Shown here one piece after another: positions 7,588-59,630 of a DNA stretch of 64,000 nt (its first letter is position 1; every line of letters starts with the position of its first letter). The DNA is from Coriolopsis trogii (taxonomy: Eukaryota > Basidiomycota > Agaricomycetes > Polyporales > Polyporaceae). The stretch lies in assembly GCA_020543525.1 (NCBI GenBank), contig JAHYIO010000005.1, forward strand, positions 744,001 through 808,000, written 5' to 3'. A model generated the notes under the pieces. The model worked only from the letters and a program-made list of their open reading frames with translations. It did not search any database and was not told where the DNA came from. A program made the translations under genes and the position numbers.

Positions 7588-7592
7588 GTGTA
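7588..7592. repeat. Left target-site duplication of the retrotransposon
   Basis: GTGTA, repeated at 13155-13159 immediately outside the other LTR. A 5-bp duplication is the length expected of a Ty3-type integrase. Confidence 0.9.
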
Positions 7593-7723
7593 TGTGACGG
7601 GCGAGGTCTCGAGAGGTCAAAATCAAGAACTGCGTTGCTCGCTAACGTCCCGTATGTACAGAATCAGAACATATACTCCTACAAGACAAGACTGAGACAG
7701 CGTCACGGGCCTTGCCCGTGACA
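7593..7723 (-). repeat. 3' LTR of the chromovirus
   Basis: A 131-bp LTR, short for the class, identical to 13024-13154. In element orientation it begins TGTCACGGGC and ends GCCCGTCACA, giving near-perfect terminal inverted repeats with TG...CA ends. Its first 23 bases also form a hairpin: GTCACGGGC and GCCCGTGAC flank a 3-base loop. Confidence 0.96.
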
Positions 7724-7752: not shown

Positions 7753-10700
7753 TCAGAGGTTGAGGCGAGTAGGGGGCTTGGAAATGCGACCAGAGCGTAG
7801 GGTTGTCTGGGGAGGAGGAGAGTAAATGCGAATGGGATCAAAAGGAGGGGCGGGAGGTGGCGAAGGAGAAGGAGAGTGGGAATGGAAGGTGGGAACATTA
7901 GCAGCAGGAATGTCCGAGTAAGTAGTGGTTTTTTCGAATACAATGGGATGTGGACGCGGAGCACGAGGGTTGCGTCGATGGAAACGAGTGATGAGTTCGT
8001 GAACGTGATCAGAAAAAGGAATATCGTAGAGGGGAACCCAAACGTTTTCGTCGGGAGAGGAGTGGTTGTACTCGATGAGGTAATCGTAGCGCTGACCGAC
8101 GCGGCGAGAGTCGCGTACGTCAGTAATGCGAAGAGCAGGGTCATCAGGGAGATCAAAAGGAATGGGCTGGGCATGGGGATGAAAGAGAGAGGGATCGGCA
8201 TAAGGCTCGAGGAGAGAGACGTGGAACACGGGATAGAGACGGGAGAGGTAGGAGGGAAGTTGAAGAAGGTACGCGTTAGGCGCAACCTTTCGTTCGACAG
8301 GATAGGGACCAAGCCGCCGATGGTCGAGCTTGTCCGACGGTCGCGTCGTGGTGATGTTGCGACGCAGTAGCCAGACAAGACGACCCGGGGCAAAGTCGGG
8401 ATCAGGGAGTGCATGGCGGTCATAGTAGCGCGCTTGACGCTCCTGCGAGTGCGCAAGTTCAGCGCGAAGCTCAGCATGGATGACGTCGAGACGTGCGACC
8501 AGATCCGCAGCTGCAGGGACAGTGGAGGGTTCGGCAAGTCGAGGCTCGAAGGTCGGGTGGTAGCCAAAGTTCGCGAAGAACGGTGTCTGGTGCGTGGACG
8601 TGTTCTCGAGGTTATTGAAGGCGAATTCGGCAAGGGGCAAATAGTCCACCCAATCATCTTGCTGGTAGGAGCAGTATGCGCGCAGGTAGGTCTCGAGCGT
8701 CTGGTTGGTGCGCTCTGTGAGACCGTCGGTCTGAGGATGGAAGGCGGTTGAGGCCTTGACATTGATGTGAAGTAGTGCGCATAGAGCCGTCCAGAAGTTC
8801 GAGACAAAGACAGAGCCGCGGTCGGACACGATGGAGTCGGGAAGGCCGTGATAGCGAAAGATTCGATCTAAAAAGAGCTGCGCAAGATGAGGGGCGTCCA
8901 TAGACTCGTTGCATGGGATGAAGTGAGCAGCGCGCGTAAGACGATCGCACACCACAAGGATGGAGTCGTACCCATGCGAGAGTGGTAGTTTGACGATTAG
9001 ATCGAAGGTGATGGCTCGCCACGGCCGATCCGGAATCTCCAGCGGGTGTAGGAGGCCGTACGGTTTGTGACGTGGCACCTTGATGCGCGCGCACGTATCG
9101 CAGGCCTCGCAGTAGCGACGGACGTATGTGTTCACGCCAGGCCAAGAGTAGTCGCGCGTGACAAGTGCGGTGGTACGCGTGCGACCTGGATGACCTGCGG
9201 AAGGGACGTCGTGCCGTGAATGGAGGATGTCCTGCCGCAATGACGGAGGGACATAGAGTCTCCCTTTATGGAAGACAAGGTCCCGCTGCACAGAAAAGTC
9301 CGAACTCCCGTTCGCAACCGCTTCGCGCCAAGTGTCATCAGTTGCGAAAGCAGTCTTGAACTTGTCAAGGAGGTCCGAACTGTCTAGGGACAGCATTGTC
9401 AAAGCAGCTATAACAAAAGCAGGGGGTGTATCAGCCGACGGTTCAACCGGAGGGTAGAGAGGAGAGATATGGCGCGCTGTGAGAATTATCTGGCGCTGTC
9501 CGGTGAGGACATCATCCCCTCTTCGAGGCAGAAAGTCCGGTCGACGTGATGGAGCGTCGGCGACATTGTCGGAGCCTGGAGCCCACGTAAGCTGGAAATC
9601 GTAGTCGGACAGAAACATTGCCCATCGTGCTTGACGTCGATTGAGCAACTGAGAGGACATGAAGTACTCAAGGTTGCGGTGATCGCATACAACCGAAATC
9701 GGGTGCGGCGAGCCCAGAACCCAAGCACGCATCTCCCGGAATGTGTCGACGATGGCAAGAAGTTCCTTGTCGTGAATATCGTAGTTGATTTCCGCTGGTG
9801 TGAACTTGCGCGAGTGGAAAGCGACCGGATGAAGGTCACCAGACTCGTCGGGCTGATGTAGTACACCAGAGAGGGCATAGTCCGAGGCATCCGTGAACAC
9901 CGTGCAAGGAGCGAGAGGATCGTAGTGCCGCAACACTGGAGCGCTGAGGAAAGCCTCCTTGAGCTTTGAGAAGGCGTCGCGCTGCTCCTGCCCGAAGACG
10001 AACTGCACTGTCTTCTGGGTCAAAGCGGTGAGCGGTAGAACAATGCGGGAGAAGTGGGGGATAAACCGCCTGTAGAAATTAGCGAAGCCGAGGAAGGACT
10101 GAACGTCCTTGATGTTCTCTGGCTCCGGCCAGTCCATGATCGTGGTGAGCTTCTTCGGGTTCATGCTGACGCCATCCGCACCGATGATGTAGCCAAGAAA
10201 CTCCACCGACGACTTGTGCCATTCACATTTTCTGGGGTTAGCGTACAACTTTGCATCGCGCAACTTCTCGAGCACGAGACGGACGTGTTTCTTGTGCTCT
10301 TCTGGAGTGCGAGAGAATATTAGTATGTCGTCGAGGTACGCTACACAGAAGACATCGAGGTGCTCGCGAAGGACATCTTGGATGAAGGACTGGAAGGCGG
10401 CGGGGGCGTTGGTAAGACCATAAGGCATGACAAGGTGCTCGAATAGACCGAGAGGTGTTCGAAAGGCTGTCTTCCACTCGTCGCCATCCTTGATTCGTAC
10501 ATGTGAGTAGGCAGACTTGAGGTCGATGACGGTGAAGATCTTGGAGCCTTGGATACGGTCGAGCAAGTCGTTCACGAGAGGAAGAGGATACCGGTTCTTG
10601 CGCGTGATAGCATTGAGCTTGCGGAAGTCGACACAGAGTCGAAGTTCGCCCGTCTTCTTGCGTGTGAATAGAACCGGAGCGGCGCACTGTGAGGAGGATC

Positions 10701-11758
10701 GTCGGATGTGTCCGCGTTTGAGGTTTTCGGCTAGATGCTTGGCAAGAGCGTCGCGTTCATCGGCAGAAAGTCGATAGAGTGGGCCAAACGGAGGAGTCTT
10801 GCCAGGTTCAAGGTCAATGTCGACGTCGTAGGGTCGATGAGGAGGTAGGTGGTCGAATTCCTTTGGATTGAAGACAGTGTCTTGGAAGTCGTGGTAGGGC
10901 GGAGGGATGCTTTCTCGAATGTTATCCCATTCAGAAGGGTCGGGCTCAGCGTCGTAGTAGTCGTGAAGCGCGTCGTCGAGCGAGGATGAGACCGTGCTGG
11001 ACTTGGGATCGAAGGTGAAAGCCGAGATAGCCGCGTTATCGGTGCGTATAGTCTTAAGAAACTTCTTAGCCGTTAGCGTCCGAATGCGGGGACCAGGAGA
11101 GCAGGAAACCGGGGATGTGGGGCGACCGAAGCCATCCGAACCCGGCCGAAGCGACGAAGGGCGACCGTGGCCATCCAACGTGTTCGAAGACGACGTGGCG
11201 AGAGAGGGCCTGTCCCGAGACGTGGAAACGTCGTCGGCAGGCAGAGCGAGTGTGCGCGTGGGCGTAGAACCTATAGTGCGACAGCAATGAAGTGTGAGTT
11301 GCAATCGTGCCCAATCAATATCAGGATTATGACGACGTAGCCAGTCGAAGCCAAGAATAACGGGATATGAGACAGATACTACAGAAAGAGAGAGGGTTTC
11401 GGAATGGTTTTGTATTTGTAATTGCGTAGTGATATCCTGAGTGACCAAGCCCGAAGCTATGGGTCGGTCGTCAACGGCAAGAATAGGAACAGGTGTGGTT
11501 TTATTTCGACGAGGAAGAGAATGGCGGACCGCGAACTCATGCGAGATGACAGAGTTCGAGGCGCCGGAATCAATCATAGCGTACGTACGTATGGGTTTTA
11601 TATTGGGAAAGGAGAGAATGATAGAGATGAAGAAATGCTGCGGTGAAAAGGTATGGGTGCCAAGAGCGAAGATAAAGTGAGGAGGAGGAAGAGGAGAACG
11701 TGGAGCGTATGAGCCATCCGAGAACCGGACGTACTCTGAGACTGGTGGACGAGACTGT
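7753..11758 (-). CDS. pol: Retrotransposon pol (PR-RT-RH-IN-chromodomain)
   Basis: Polyprotein that copies and integrates the element. The first internal ATG is at 11577 (1,274 codons from there). The frame is already open from 11787, and splicing from gag would enter at 11758, adding the strand that leads into the protease site MIDSGASNSVI. Then follow reverse transcriptase (active site YLDDILIFS), RNase H (FTDASDYALSGVL, DKELLAIV, VVCDHRNLEYF), integrase zinc finger (HPGRTR...CEACDTCARIK) and the catalytic D, D and E (ITFDLI, VSDRGSVF, GLTERTNQ). The C-terminal chromodomain (VRDSRRVGQRYDYLIEY, ENVWVPLYD) may direct integration to particular chromatin, as in other chromoviruses. A proline-rich tail ends the protein. 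No internal stop or frameshift is visible. Confidence 0.96.
9508..9526 (-). other. Internal copy of the polypurine tract
   Basis: The 19 bases here match 7720-7738 (the 3' polypurine tract plus the first LTR bases) at 18 positions. The purine core GAAGAGGGGATG is identical. It lies inside pol, between RNase H and integrase, and encodes LPRRGDD-type residues. It could act as a central plus-strand primer. Confidence 0.55.
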
Positions 11759-11820
11759 CTGTAAGATGCGCCCGGATCATCAACCAGTCATCTGCTCTGC
11801 GGGCGAGGCGAGTCACTCAC
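11759..11820 (-). other. Predicted gag-pol intron (62 nt)
   Basis: On the minus strand the last sense codon of gag runs into GTGAGTGACT, a consensus donor that overlaps the gag stop TGA. A CATCTTACAG acceptor ends at 11759. Excision joins 11821 to 11758, restores the split serine codon and continues exactly in the pol frame. The size fits this genome's introns. The unspliced frames do not overlap: the pol frame is closed by a stop at 11788-11790, 26 bases past the gag stop. Confidence 0.75.
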
Positions 11821-12923
11821 GATTTGGCCGCGGAGGGCTTCGCTGCGTTACTACGCGCAGCGTTGCGCTTCTTCGCGGCCTCAGAGAGGTTCGGGCAGGA
11901 CGCGGCAATATGGCCAGACCCTCCACAATAGCGGCAGAGGTTGAGGTCTCGACGGCGTTGGCGTTCCTTGTCGTCGAGACGTCCACGTCCTATGCTTGTC
12001 GCATCAATCTCCATCGGAACCACGCCAGAATGAGCAGTCACAGCGGTGGTCGAGGAAGATTGTTGGACAGCGGAAGACTGGGACGTCTTCAGACGGTTGC
12101 CATTGCCATTGCCGTTGTGCGCGCGTTCGAGCATACGATTAGCGTGCTGCTCGTTGTCAATGTCGACAGCATCCTCCATGAGCTCCAGGAAGGAAGAGGG
12201 TTGGTGACGGCGACCGCGCGCGGCGAGCGCGTTACGAACCTCCGGCTTGAGGCCAGTCTTGAACATGTCGATCTTAGACTGTTCGGAAAGGGTGACATGC
12301 GCGAGGAGCGCGATGAACCGCGCCTTGTACTGAGAGCACGGACCTTTCTGCCGGAGGGTCTGCAGTTTGCGCAGACTCGTCGCTGAGAGATTGGGATCGC
12401 CGAAATGGACGCGGAATTCAGCGAAGAGCGCGGTGATGTCATTGAGAAGATCGGTCCTGGTCAGCTCAATGGACTTGAACCAGTCGCTGGGGTCGCCCGG
12501 ACCTAGGTAGGTGCTAAAGTACGTAGCGCGGGCAAAGTCCGTGGATAGCGCCGTGCCTTGGAGTGCGAGAGCAGCTGACATGGAGTGAAGGAATGTGTCG
12601 ACGTCGGAGGAGGACCCCGTGAACACCACGGGTTCTCGGAAGCGTGGAATAGGGGGTGGTTTAGGGGCAGCCGCGATGTTGCTGAGTGCGTTGATGCGGT
12701 CGGTGAGCGCGAGAGAACCGTTACCCAGACTGGCCATGATGGAGGAGAAGTTGGCCAGATTGTGAGCAAGGGCGGCCTGAGAGTCTTGAAGAGCACGGAG
12801 GAAACGGAGTTGAGCGAGTGCGGGGTCGACATTGAGGTCGTCGGGATGAGAGAACGGGTCCGATGATTGGTCAGGAGGAAGAGAAGGAAGGGGAGGAGTC
12901 GTGTTGAACGGGTTGTTTGCCAT
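11817..12923 (-). CDS. gag: Retrotransposon gag
   Basis: Structural protein of 368 codons that should form the virus-like particle and bind the RNA. It has a Pro/Ser-rich start, the Ty3-type capsid region (PRFREPVVFTGSSSDVDTFL, then WFKSIELTRTDLLNDITALF) and one CCHC zinc knuckle, CRYCGGSGHIAASC. The tail is Ala/Lys-rich. The stop codon TGA at 11817-11819 lies inside a consensus splice donor, so unspliced RNA gives Gag alone and spliced RNA would give a Gag-Pol fusion. ATG 12923 is the only sensible start and sits about 100 bases inside the 5' LTR. Confidence 0.93.
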   Translation of the reverse strand: MANNPFNTTPPLPSLPPDQSSDPFSHPDDLNVDPALAQLRFLRALQDSQAALAHNLANFSSIMASLGNGSLALTDRINALSNIAAAPKPPPIPRFREPVVFTGSSSDVDTFLHSMSAALALQGTALSTDFARATYFSTYLGPGDPSDWFKSIELTRTDLLNDITALFAEFRVHFGDPNLSATSLRKLQTLRQKGPCSQYKARFIALLAHVTLSEQSKIDMFKTGLKPEVRNALAARGRRHQPSSFLELMEDAVDIDNEQHANRMLERAHNGNGNGNRLKTSQSSAVQQSSSTTAVTAHSGVVPMEIDATSIGRGRLDDKERQRRRDLNLCRYCGGSGHIAASCPNLSEAAKKRNAARSNAAKPSAAKS

Positions 12924-13023: not shown

Positions 13024-13154
13024 TGTGACGGGCGAGGTCTCGAGAGGTCAAAATCAAGAACTGCGTTGCTCGCTAACGTCCCGTATGTACAGAATCAGAA
13101 CATATACTCCTACAAGACAAGACTGAGACAGCGTCACGGGCCTTGCCCGTGACA
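13024..13154 (-). repeat. 5' LTR of the chromovirus
   Basis: A 131-bp copy identical to 7593-7723; it should contain the promoter and R region. The AGCGAGCAA stretch complementary to the primer-binding region lies in it and would need to be near the transcript start for self-priming. Confidence 0.96.
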
Positions 13155-13159
13155 GTGTA
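13155..13159. repeat. Right target-site duplication of the retrotransposon
   Basis: GTGTA directly after the LTR, matching 7588-7592. Confidence 0.9.
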
Positions 13160-20683: not shown

Positions 20684-22683
20684 TCACAGCTCCTTTTTCT
20701 CGGATACAGTCTTCGCGGCAGCCGCATCGGCCTTGTACCCTTCGAGCGCACGGAGTCGCTCCGTCAGCGTCGGGTGCGAGTGGTGATACGCCGAGTACCT
20801 AACCAAGCCGACCATAATCAGCCATCACAATCGGCAATGTCGTCCCCCAGGTCCCCCTGCGGACATCAGGCGAACCGCGCAAACGCAAGAACACTCACAG
20901 CCAATCCACCCAAACGGTCGACAAGTTCTCCACATGGAGCGCCACGAGCGCGCGCCCGAGCCGGTCGCCCATGTCCTTCATCGCGGGGTCCCCGAGCATG
21001 TTCTCGAGCTCGCACGCGAACCGGTCCGCCTCGTACTCGAACTTGCGGCTCACCATGTTGATTAGGATGCCCACGACGGCCTCGAGCGGCGTCAGCAGCA
21101 TCTATATTTCCGACGCACGACGTGTATCAGTGACGGGCTTTGCACCGCGCGGTAGGGAGGATGACGTACCTGGTAGATGAGGAAGGCGATGATGATCGGG
21201 GGTTTCGCCGCGACGCTAGGCGGGAAGTCGAACGCGCGGAGGAGCGGGGGCGCGTGCAGGAAGGCGGGGAAGAGCGCGAGGATGGTGAAGATGTGCAGCT
21301 GCGAGACCGAGAGCAGTTTCGTGGGGTGCATGTAGTACCAGTGACCAAGCTCGTGCGCTGTGTCAACACGCGTCAGAACGGACGTCAAGAAAAGCACACG
21401 AATGCACACATACCGAGGACCGCCTCTACCTCCTCAGACTTGCTTTGTTTGATCAGCGTGTCAAAGATGACGATGTGTTTGCTCTGTAGAGTGGACACGT
21501 TAATCCAGATCCTGGATAACTATCAACGGGGCACGTACCCAAGGCAGACCGAAGAAGTAGGCATTCGAGTGCGAGCTACGTTTCGAACCGTCGATCTCAT
21601 ACAGGTGCTTCAGCGGGAACTTGAGCTTCGATGCCAGCGCCTCGATACGGTTTCGGAGGTCGCCCTCCGCAAGCGGGGACAGCTTGTTGAACAACGGCTG
21701 AATGACGGTCGGGTAGAGCACGACCATAGACATCTGGAAGATCAACCTGTCGCGCATGCATTCATCTCGCCGTCGCAGTCACTGGCATGAAGGGTTGCCG
21801 AACGCACATGAAAGCCATCAACCAGGGAACGAAGCGGTCCCCAGCCCAACGGAAGATCCACAGGAAGCCAGCGAGGAAAGGTGCACCAATAACGAAGCCG
21901 ACGAGCCATCCCTTGAGAAGGTCGGTGACGAAGAGGGCAGGTGTAGTCTTGTTGAAGCCATGCTTCTCCTCCAGCACGAAGGTCTGGTATACGGAGAGCG
22001 GCATTGATGGCAGACTGGAGATGAAGAAGAGCGTGAACGCAAATGCGATGGATTGTACAATCTGGGAGGCCAAACTTAGTCCTTCTAGCCAATGGGTAGC
22101 GAACGAATGGACAAGGACTGTGTGGAGACGTACTGGATACGCTTTGCAGCGCATACAGCCGCCATGCATCACGTCCGACTGTCTTCTATCCCAGGACAAT
22201 CAGAATCACGCACCTCATATTCCGGTCCATATCCCAGTTTCGAGATCATCCACCCGGCAACCTTCCATGACCAGGCGACCAAACCGATCTGGACGAAGAC
22301 GGAGTCGACAATTTGCTTGAAGAAACCTGCGAGAAGCGAGAACTTGGCCTTGTCCTTGCCGTACGCTTGAGACTTGGCAAAGACCCCGGGCTTGAAATGT
22401 TCTGCAAGTGCTGGTGGTGGTGCCTCCTTTGAGTAGAGAGGGAACTGACGCAGCCTGAGGGACGACGTCAGAGTTCGTCAACGCTATTGTCGAGTCCAGC
22501 CTCGTAGTGCAGCCCACGGGCTTGGTCAATAAAAGGCGGTAAAGAAGCGTACAAGAGGTAAGATTCGAAGAGACACACGGCCCAGGACGAGGCTTGAAGG
22601 TAGAGCTTCCAGTCAAATGGGTCGGTTGAGACCCATGCGAGTCGGTTCTGGACGGCGTCAAGGCCGGCGTTGAGATAGTCCAT
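20684..22683 (-). CDS. STE24: CAAX prenyl protease 1 (STE24 zinc metalloprotease)
   Basis: Integral ER/inner nuclear membrane zinc protease that trims the C-terminal three residues of farnesylated CAAX proteins and, in yeast, also the N-terminus of a-factor. Exons: 22683-22554, 22454-22214, 22061-21808, 21746-21539, 21483-21414, 21357-21170, 21101-20899 and 20798-20684. The zinc motif is HELGH (AHELGHWYYMHP). The second zinc glutamate is expected in SRKFEYEADRFACEL. Family motifs include SNAYFFGLP, VLEEKHGFNKTT and several transmembrane helices. The protein ends in a charged tail of the EKKEL type, possibly an ER-retention-like signal. The frame before ATG 22683 opens only with a GTG, so this ATG is preferred. 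All junctions are GT-AG and all catalytic residues are present. Confidence 0.95.
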
Positions 22684-23016
22684 GGGCACAGTCACCAGTC
22701 GCTCAAGTCAGCATGCAGAGGGCAACGTGCGTAGTGGAGAGAGAGATGATGAGCGTCGAAGACAGATATGCGGACGGTCTGCTCAGAGTGTTGGACGACG
22801 TGTACGCGCCTACCCCGCCACCGACGCGCCAGCAAGTCTCTCCGGTCCGTCGGCCTGCGTCCCCGGGCCGCTAGTCCGGAGGCTCAGTCCAAGCTTAGTC
22901 CACTCAAAGTCCACTTGAACAAACCAACGAATCTCTGTCAAAACGATGCAACGTGAGGTCTCGTATCGTCCTATGTTCTACGTGTTAGGCTTACTGTCTA
23001 CACCGTCTAGTCAAGG
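22684..23016. promoter_or_regulatory. Divergent promoter region STE24 / F-box-like gene
   Basis: A 333-bp gap between two divergent start codons; it must hold both promoters. No specific motif is recognisable. Confidence 0.4.
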
Positions 23017-57802: not shown

Positions 57803-59630
57803 AGCATACAGTCACCTTCGATTTGGTTGAAGGATACAGGGTTGCCCGTCGGTCCGGTCCCCGAATCTGCCATAAAGCACCCGGAAACAGCCGGGCCAGC
57901 AAGCGCCCGTCCTCCATCTTCAGGCGCGACGTACTGATTTGCGGGGAATCAATTCAAGTGCACCTCACACAAGGAGCATTTCCCAATGTTTGCAGGATAA
58001 ACATTGTGGGAACATACCTGGAAATGAAATTATATTGACGGCGTGTTCTGATCGCAAACATACTAAGAATGTGTATGGAGGCTCTACATTCGGACAAAAA
58101 AGTCCCAGGTTTAATAAACCTTGGGACTTTTTTGTTTGCCTCCCCTGTCTGTTGTAGCACGTTGCTGCCCCCCCGCCCATTTTCCTACCATCTCATTGTG
58201 CTGATTGGATTAAATAGGGACTATCTTGGGGGCCCTGAAGACCGTTAGGATGGCATAGGCGACGGACAACGACGAGGCGGGATGATTCCTGATTTGGAAG
58301 CATGGGATGATACAGGCGCTCATGACTTCCCGCCCGTCGCGATTGCCTTTGAGAGCTCCGCGCCGCCTGGCGTCTCTCTATCTCCCGTCATTGTTCCCGC
58401 TCTCGTAGTCGTCCCTCACGCCTTCGGACGCGCGCGCGCATGCGTCCGAACCTATTATACACTGCGCCTAGCGATTTTCTGAGCCTCCAAAATGAGGTGA
58501 ATGGTGCGAGTACACTTGGGGGTGGGCGGTAGGTAGACAAAAAAGTCCCGAGGTTTAATAAACCTGGGACTTTTTTGTCCGATTGTATATGGCTCTGTGT
58601 ATATATAGCGCAAACTACTTGCACAATGTTCATACGATGTTCATCTAGGGTATATACCAGGAATATGTAGGATAATTGCACAATATCAACGTGGAAGACA
58701 TAGATTACAACCATGGTGTTAATTTGTTGAAATTCCTCGGTATGTTTGCAGTCCAAACAGGGTGTAAACATGGTTTGAGTATTGGCGGTAAATTGTGCAG
58801 AAATGTGCCTAGTATGGTACCGTGTTCTGACCATATTCCCACATGGACTAATTGGTAGACATATTACATATTCGCGCCATACTCCTGCCCTTATTATTGT
58901 AAGTAAGCATGCAGCGAACAGGCCCTATAATCAAAGAATACTTGCAATGTGAGCATTCAAAGAATATCGGCATAATATCCCTCATTTTTGCCGTTCTTTT
59001 CTCAGCATACTCAGGAGTAGAGAATGCAGGTGAAACGGTAGAATCATTGGTTGAATATGCTTCATGTTCACAGCGTTAACATCTTGCATATAATTCCCGA
59101 CTGTGACACGGCATTCACGGTACGTTTCGGCATGCATGTCGTGTGCCGATTCGTGGCAAGAGTCTCGATGCGAAAGTCGTACCGAAAGCAATGTCGTGCA
59201 TCGTCCATACTGCGTCACAAATATCGCCAAATTTGTATATACTGAACACAACACGAAGTCTCATATCCGCCGCGATGAGTAGTCGATGTACGCGAGGTAA
59301 ATGCATGAGGTGCGGGCTCTTAGTCCAACAATGGCAGGCCGATTCCATTCCTTGATGTCAGCCAAGAAAGATGGAGAAACCGAACGCGGTCGTAAGCATG
59401 CCAGTAATAAGGGGGAACAAATCCGGACCTGAGACGAATGTCACGCTCAGTCAACGCAGACGACACAATCGAGGCCCGGGCGAGTAGATAATGCGCATTG
59501 AGGTACAGGACGATTGGCGACCGCTGGCGCGTTCGTCCAGGCCCTCTAAGAGCGCATCGATGCGACATTCCTAGATGCGGAGGCCATCTGAGACAGATGC
59601 TATGAGATACTGATAGCATGTATGGCAGTC
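57803..59630. other. Intergenic stretch with palindromic repeats
   Basis: No gene is supported. It contains the paired palindromes at 58091-58581. The segment 58580-59300 is AT-richer than the flanking genes and has no long frames with features. Confidence 0.4.
58091..58581. repeat. Pair of inverted near-palindromes, possible TIR element
   Basis: At 58094-58134 and 58537-58578 stand two copies of a roughly 42-base palindrome: ACAAAAAAGTCCC, a short AGGTTTAATAAACC centre, and GGGACTTTTTTGT. Each copy has one extra base in one arm, and the extra base is on opposite sides, so the copies are inverted relative to each other. Outward, CGG before the left copy and CCG after the right extend the inverted repeat, with ATT on both outer sides. 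This fits the ends of a 491-bp non-autonomous element, or two small foldback elements. Confidence 0.5.

Follow-up and report, generated by a model that had tools for sequence, protein, structure and literature searches.

How does a Ty3-type retrotransposon produce its Gag-Pol protein when its gag and pol frames do not overlap? The ratio of Gag to Gag-Pol is important to retroelements, and the ribosome commonly sets it. The question is raised by an element in the window analysed here, a stretch of 64,000 nucleotides from the fungus Coriolopsis trogii, whose genome assembly (G000, 38.8 Mb) supplied the window, the other copies of the element, the other retrotransposon families and the host introns used below. 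The minus strand from 13154 to 7593 holds a complete and intact Ty3-type LTR retrotransposon of 5562 nt, bounded by a 5' LTR of 131 nt at 13024-13154 (TGTCACGG...GTCACA in the sense of the element) and a 3' LTR of 131 nt at 7593-7723, also on the minus strand, which form a direct repeat of 100% identity. The target duplication GTGTA flanks the element at 7588-7592 and 13155-13159, so that it has the paired LTRs and the short target duplication of Ty3/gypsy elements. The element is young, as the identical LTRs point to a recent insertion. On the minus strand, gag runs from the ATG at 12923 to the TGA at 11819-11817 (feature 11817-12923) and encodes capsid and CCHC domains, while the pol open reading frame (7753-11787, minus strand, 1344 codons) encodes protease, reverse transcriptase (RT), RNase H and integrase, the Pfam domain order of Ty3/gypsy elements. 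A chromodomain match at the C-terminus of pol is weak (E 0.043, under the curated cut-off). Elsewhere in the window, a MITE-like repeat of about 520 bp occupies 58077-58595, with 60-nt inverted ends (58085-58144 and 58528-58587) that are 90% complementary; it has 104 match rows in the genome, 15 of which, including that of the window, cover its full span with at least 92% identity.

Relative to gag, pol sits in the -1 frame, and a single TGA (11788-11790, minus strand) interrupts this frame, which otherwise stays open back into gag. The initial annotation had placed the gag stop at 11817-11819 and the closure of pol at 11788-11790 with no overlap between the frames, and these coordinates were confirmed on the minus strand. 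The overlap that characterises -1 frameshifting Ty3-type elements is thus absent at this junction, where 29 nt lead from the gag stop to the TGA closing pol. That annotation had also held that -1 or +1 frameshifting could not join the frames, and we indeed found that a ribosome shifting to -1 at the end of gag meets the TGA 29 nt past the gag stop; reading through the gag stop, by itself, keeps the ribosome outside the pol frame. Because of the TGA at 11790-11788, neither a single frameshift nor readthrough can join gag to pol. Moreover, no in-frame slippery heptamer of the form XXXYYYZ occurs in the element of the window.

A candidate solution is a putative spliceosomal intron of 62 nt (11759-11820, minus strand; GTGAGT...CTTACAG), the first bases of which overlap the gag stop codon. 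Both splice sites had been proposed in the initial annotation and both hold: the donor begins at 11820, a single base ahead of the gag TGA, and the acceptor gives an in-phase excision that leads toward the DSGAS motif of the protease. Removal of the 62 nt, with the predicted second exon of pol starting at 11758, fuses AAKS to QSRPPVSEYVRF in the pol frame, and the joined frame continues to the protease site MIDSGAS (11557-11577, minus strand), whose M is the first ATG of the pol frame. Related pol proteins have in common with the element a stretch (VR, DG or a similar pair, and the strand before DSGA) that starts at most about 10 codons past the acceptor.

To judge the splice sites we required introns from the same host. 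Mining the 64-kb window by joining open frames yielded 33 GT-AG candidates as against 16 to 36 for five decoy dinucleotide pairs, and because of this lack of excess the host introns were drawn instead from chaperonin and HSP70 genes of the genome assembly, sugar transporter matches being left aside. The nine chaperonin and HSP70 loci gave 34 junctions with candidates and 8 without, from which the 19 introns with clear boundaries were kept (46-77 nt, median 58), and the splice-site model was built on these 19. The length of the putative intron falls within this host range and its GT-AG ends are host-like. The 5' splice site GTGAGT (11815-11820, minus strand; context AAATC/GTGAGT, the slash marking the boundary) is the commonest host donor, being used in 5 of the 19, and scores 8.3 bits, at least as high as 13 of the 19 host introns; the 3' splice site CTTACAG (11759-11765, minus strand; CATCTTACAG/ACAG) scores 7.2 bits, at least as high as 17 of them. 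The best branch-site candidate, TTGAT (11779-11783, minus strand), lies 21 nt from the 3' end of the intron and is weaker than CTGAC, the branch site present in 9 of the 19 host introns. The T and pyrimidine content of the segment is below that of 18 of the 19. A weak branch site and few pyrimidines would be expected of a poorly spliced intron, and also of a false one.

Several comparisons addressed how readily such a pair of sites arises by chance. The candidate, with 15.5 bits in total, is alone among the junction's GT-AG pairs of 45-85 nt in fusing the frames, and among the 429 GT-AG pairs of that length on the sense strand of the element it ranks first, the runner-up reaching 13.4 bits. 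Dinucleotide shuffles of the 257-nt junction yielded a pair in this length class with as good a score in 6 of 3000 cases. Pairs of at least 15.4 bits numbered 14 in 46.5 kb of other sequence (both strands, six other element loci and their flanks), and some of these are perhaps real host introns. The second-best pair of the sense strand (53 nt, 13.4 bits) is located at 11536-11588, over the active site of the protease, and its use would shift the frame.

If the junction is spliced, its sites should be kept among copies of the element. A 401-nt junction probe detected four copies in the genome assembly, namely that of the window, two on contig C8 and one on contig C28. The two C8 copies are the facing arms of a single rearranged locus, with 99.88% identity over 3338 nt and three LTR matches, so that the four copies represent three independent loci. 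This inverted duplication (L035, G000:C8:563000-571500) looks like an element integrated into itself, an assembly fault being also possible. The same assembly has a sugar transporter match with identical coordinates (21965-22882) and score on G000:C32 and G000:C33, a sign that this assembly may contain duplicated sequence. All four junction copies have an intact donor and acceptor and keep the two stops, including the TGA that closes pol within the intron, and the intron body differs among them by two single substitutions, neither of them in the splice sites. No copy lacking the splice sites and having overlapping gag and pol frames, which the initial annotation had named as an observation against its reading, was present among the four.

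The changes accumulated in pol were also compared, and per site the silent ones outnumber those that alter the protein. Between the window and the minus-strand C8 copy there are 19 silent and 17 altering changes (raw per-site ratio of about 0.29), and between the window and the plus-strand C8 copy 14 silent and 11 altering ones over the 2852 nt covered, so that pol looks to have changed under selection between the window and C8 copies. The C28 copy is decayed: it differs from the window by 17 silent and 30 altering changes (raw per-site ratio of about 0.58), has one premature stop and carries in gag an inserted repeat of about 311-323 nt. Of the genome match rows of this repeat (L036:933-1243, 311 nt), 33 out of 97 span all 311 nt, and 12 of these 33 are regularly spaced at about 7.24 kb on contigs C25, C26 and C27, where the repeat is perhaps part of a tandem array such as rDNA.

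Taking the frame geometry, the splice sites of host grade, the retention of the arrangement in all four copies and the want of another plausible route, the reading of an intron offered by the initial annotation is sustained in its core, and splicing is the likely route to Gag-Pol in this element. We consider it probable that unspliced RNA yields Gag and that RNA from which the host has removed the 62 nt between 11820 and 11759 yields Gag-Pol. Unspliced RNA would be translated up to the TGA that overlaps the 5' splice site, whereas in part of the transcripts the host spliceosome would excise the intron and allow Gag-Pol to be made. Splicing would then be partial, as the weak branch site, the few pyrimidines and the retention of the intron in every copy indirectly hint, and we infer that this would set the Gag to Gag-Pol ratio. 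Unspliced RNA would also be the template for new copies, spliced RNA presumably being excluded from replication.

Other Ty3-type families provide the background against which this arrangement is to be seen. Eighteen loci from other families of this genome were read (L037-L054): a -1 overlap between gag and pol is present in 13, the pol frame of L044 is closed and four are unclassifiable. A scan of genome contigs gave a further 18 Ty3-type loci (L055-L072) inside bacterial assemblies, for example on several contigs of a Trichormus assembly, which are presumably eukaryotic contamination. Nine of these have a -1 overlap, three an in-frame stop and two the gag and pol domains in one open reading frame, with three unclassifiable; the remaining one, L068, combines a +1 frame with a gap and was set aside because the start of its pol contains a run of N. 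In the tree none of these 18 was a close relative of the element of the window, and three scans of viral contigs, with 7, 15 and 147 pattern matches, turned up no relative. An intron scan took 19 loci, from which L046, L058 and L068 (each lacking a motif) and two belonging to the family of the window element dropped out. Of the 14 left, for some of which the host model may not fit since they come from other organisms, and including L043 with its gag motif misplaced, 10 had no frame-joining intron and four had one at 5.8 bits or less, compared with 15.5 bits in the window.

These families also bring into play the alternative that has most in its favour, namely that the lineage used -1 frameshifting until recently and is now broken. 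According to this explanation, the source copy acquired a stop in the pol frame, later copies used borrowed proteins for their propagation, and the splice sites are coincidental. It draws on the position of pol, whose frame remains -1 relative to gag and runs open from within gag as far as the one TGA, and on the -1 overlap that related families use. It would however make the frame-fusing intron a product of chance, which the shuffles reproduced 6 times in 3000, and it is at odds with the pol changes between window and C8, which look selected, and with P0003 and P0038, two related proteins described below, which point to a lineage persisting beyond this genome. No XXXYYYZ heptamer is left in the element either, while 11 of 19 other loci have in-frame heptamers (GGGAAAA, AAAAAAT, GGGTTTC, GGGAAAC, CCCAAAA); as the other 8 of these 19 are equally without one, the missing heptamer alone is indecisive, and the lack of overlap between gag and pol is the stronger point. 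We regard a broken frameshifting lineage as improbable.

Pol could instead be made separately, through reinitiation or a non-ATG start after the gag stop, or from some other spliced or internal transcript. The pol frame does open with a CTG (11787) and also contains an ACG, but its first ATG is the M of MIDSGAS and is preceded by three out-of-frame ATGs, so that a product initiated there would lose the N-terminal part of the protease, and we give this route very little weight. Least credible of all is a compound recoding, by -1 frameshifting combined with readthrough of the TGA or by bypassing of the gap. The stem possible in the junction RNA (-16.9 kcal/mol for 79 nt, as a raw value) is the feature in its favour. 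Against it, several rare events would have to follow one another where no slippery heptamer exists, and a ribosome that only reads through the gag stop misses the pol frame.

Relatives outside this genome bear on the splicing reading as well. In the RT tree the element of the window groups with P0003 and next with P0004, P0008, P0009 and P0019. P0003 shares 81% identity across 79% of the first 330 residues of pol, and P0038, a relative of Gag (58% identical over 90%), ends at the homologous residue; judged by these similarities, the two show the lineage to persist outside this genome. P0019, from Tetrapyrgos nigripes, is annotated as a single Gag-Pol protein of 1770 residues. Its linker between zinc knuckle and protease has 85 residues, the same as in the predicted spliced product, and that of family B has about 100, reached by frameshift; the linkers of other annotated fusions vary between 36 and 98 residues, and hence the match at 85 may be due to chance. 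Of the fusion proteins in the match list, which include P0019 and others farther off such as P0035, none exceeds 38% identity to the element of the window.

As for its origin, the unspliced spacer between zinc knuckle and protease measures 317 nt here compared with 302 nt in family B, and this similarity, together with a pol frame open into gag but for one TGA, suggests that the intron was born within a former frameshift spacer. In a likely history, splice sites would have appeared in the gag-pol spacer of an ancestor that used -1 frameshifting, and the slippery site and the open overlap would have been lost. More tentatively, and at somewhat under an even chance, a Ty3 clade of mushroom-type fungi that includes the Tetrapyrgos element of P0019 and those behind P0003 and P0038 may have replaced -1 frameshifting by deliberately poor host splicing, with the donor doubling as the gag stop so that one short site sets the ratio, and with the intron derived from the old frameshift spacer and not from an insertion.

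If the splicing model is true, control of the ratio would pass to the host spliceosome through a 62-nt intron whose first bases overlap the gag stop, providing a natural example of one expression switch being replaced by another. The element would further be linked to incompletely spliced RNA. In Cryptococcus, nuclear RNAi acts on incompletely spliced RNA and DNA transposase transcripts are among its strongest targets (PMC7175516), so that the element would display a feature targeted by that pathway.

How does this compare with known systems? In the literature searched, which included few subscription journals and in part consisted of excerpts, we found no fungal element making Gag-Pol by splicing. 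Fungal -1 frameshifters, comprising families B, C, E, F and G of this study and the Verticillium elements VdLTRE 2-4 (PMC3441728), have the same domain order and likewise hold pol in the -1 frame; in families B, C, E, F and G gag and pol overlap, whereas in the element of the window they do not and the putative intron bridges them. Tf1-like elements are, like ours, fungal and Ty3-type, and the figure legend that sets out their Gag-Pol strategies gives -1 frameshift, in-frame stop and single open reading frame, with no splicing (PMC10085805). The same comparison ascribes one earlier frame assignment to a probable sequence error (PMC10085805); the frames of the element of the window agree across three loci.

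What would be new, and appears well supported in its core, is a use of splicing resembling that of the plant element Ogre in a fungal lineage that has frameshifting relatives, and with a donor that overlaps the gag stop. The RT of Ogre belongs to the plant Tat lineage. In Ogre, also of the Ty3/gypsy group, some of the transcripts lose an intron that lies within gag-pol and the whole polyprotein becomes translatable, a precedent that the initial annotation had missed (PMC6317226). Splicing has been demonstrated experimentally for Ogre and is inferred here; the Ogre intron is placed between the protease and RT open reading frames of a plant element, whereas ours, of 62 nt and in a fungal host, spans the gag stop before the protease and thus lies between gag and protease. 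A 2025 review treats Ogre and EVADE as exceptions among plant elements in that they bear an intron (PMC12786077). The comparison with copia that the initial annotation did draw was right as to sense: in Drosophila copia and in barley BARE1 the spliced RNA makes Gag alone (PMC3735527). These elements share with ours the separation of Gag from Gag-Pol products by host splicing (PMC3735527), in the opposite sense, since in the element of the window it is the spliced RNA that would make Gag-Pol and retention of the intron that would stop translation at Gag.
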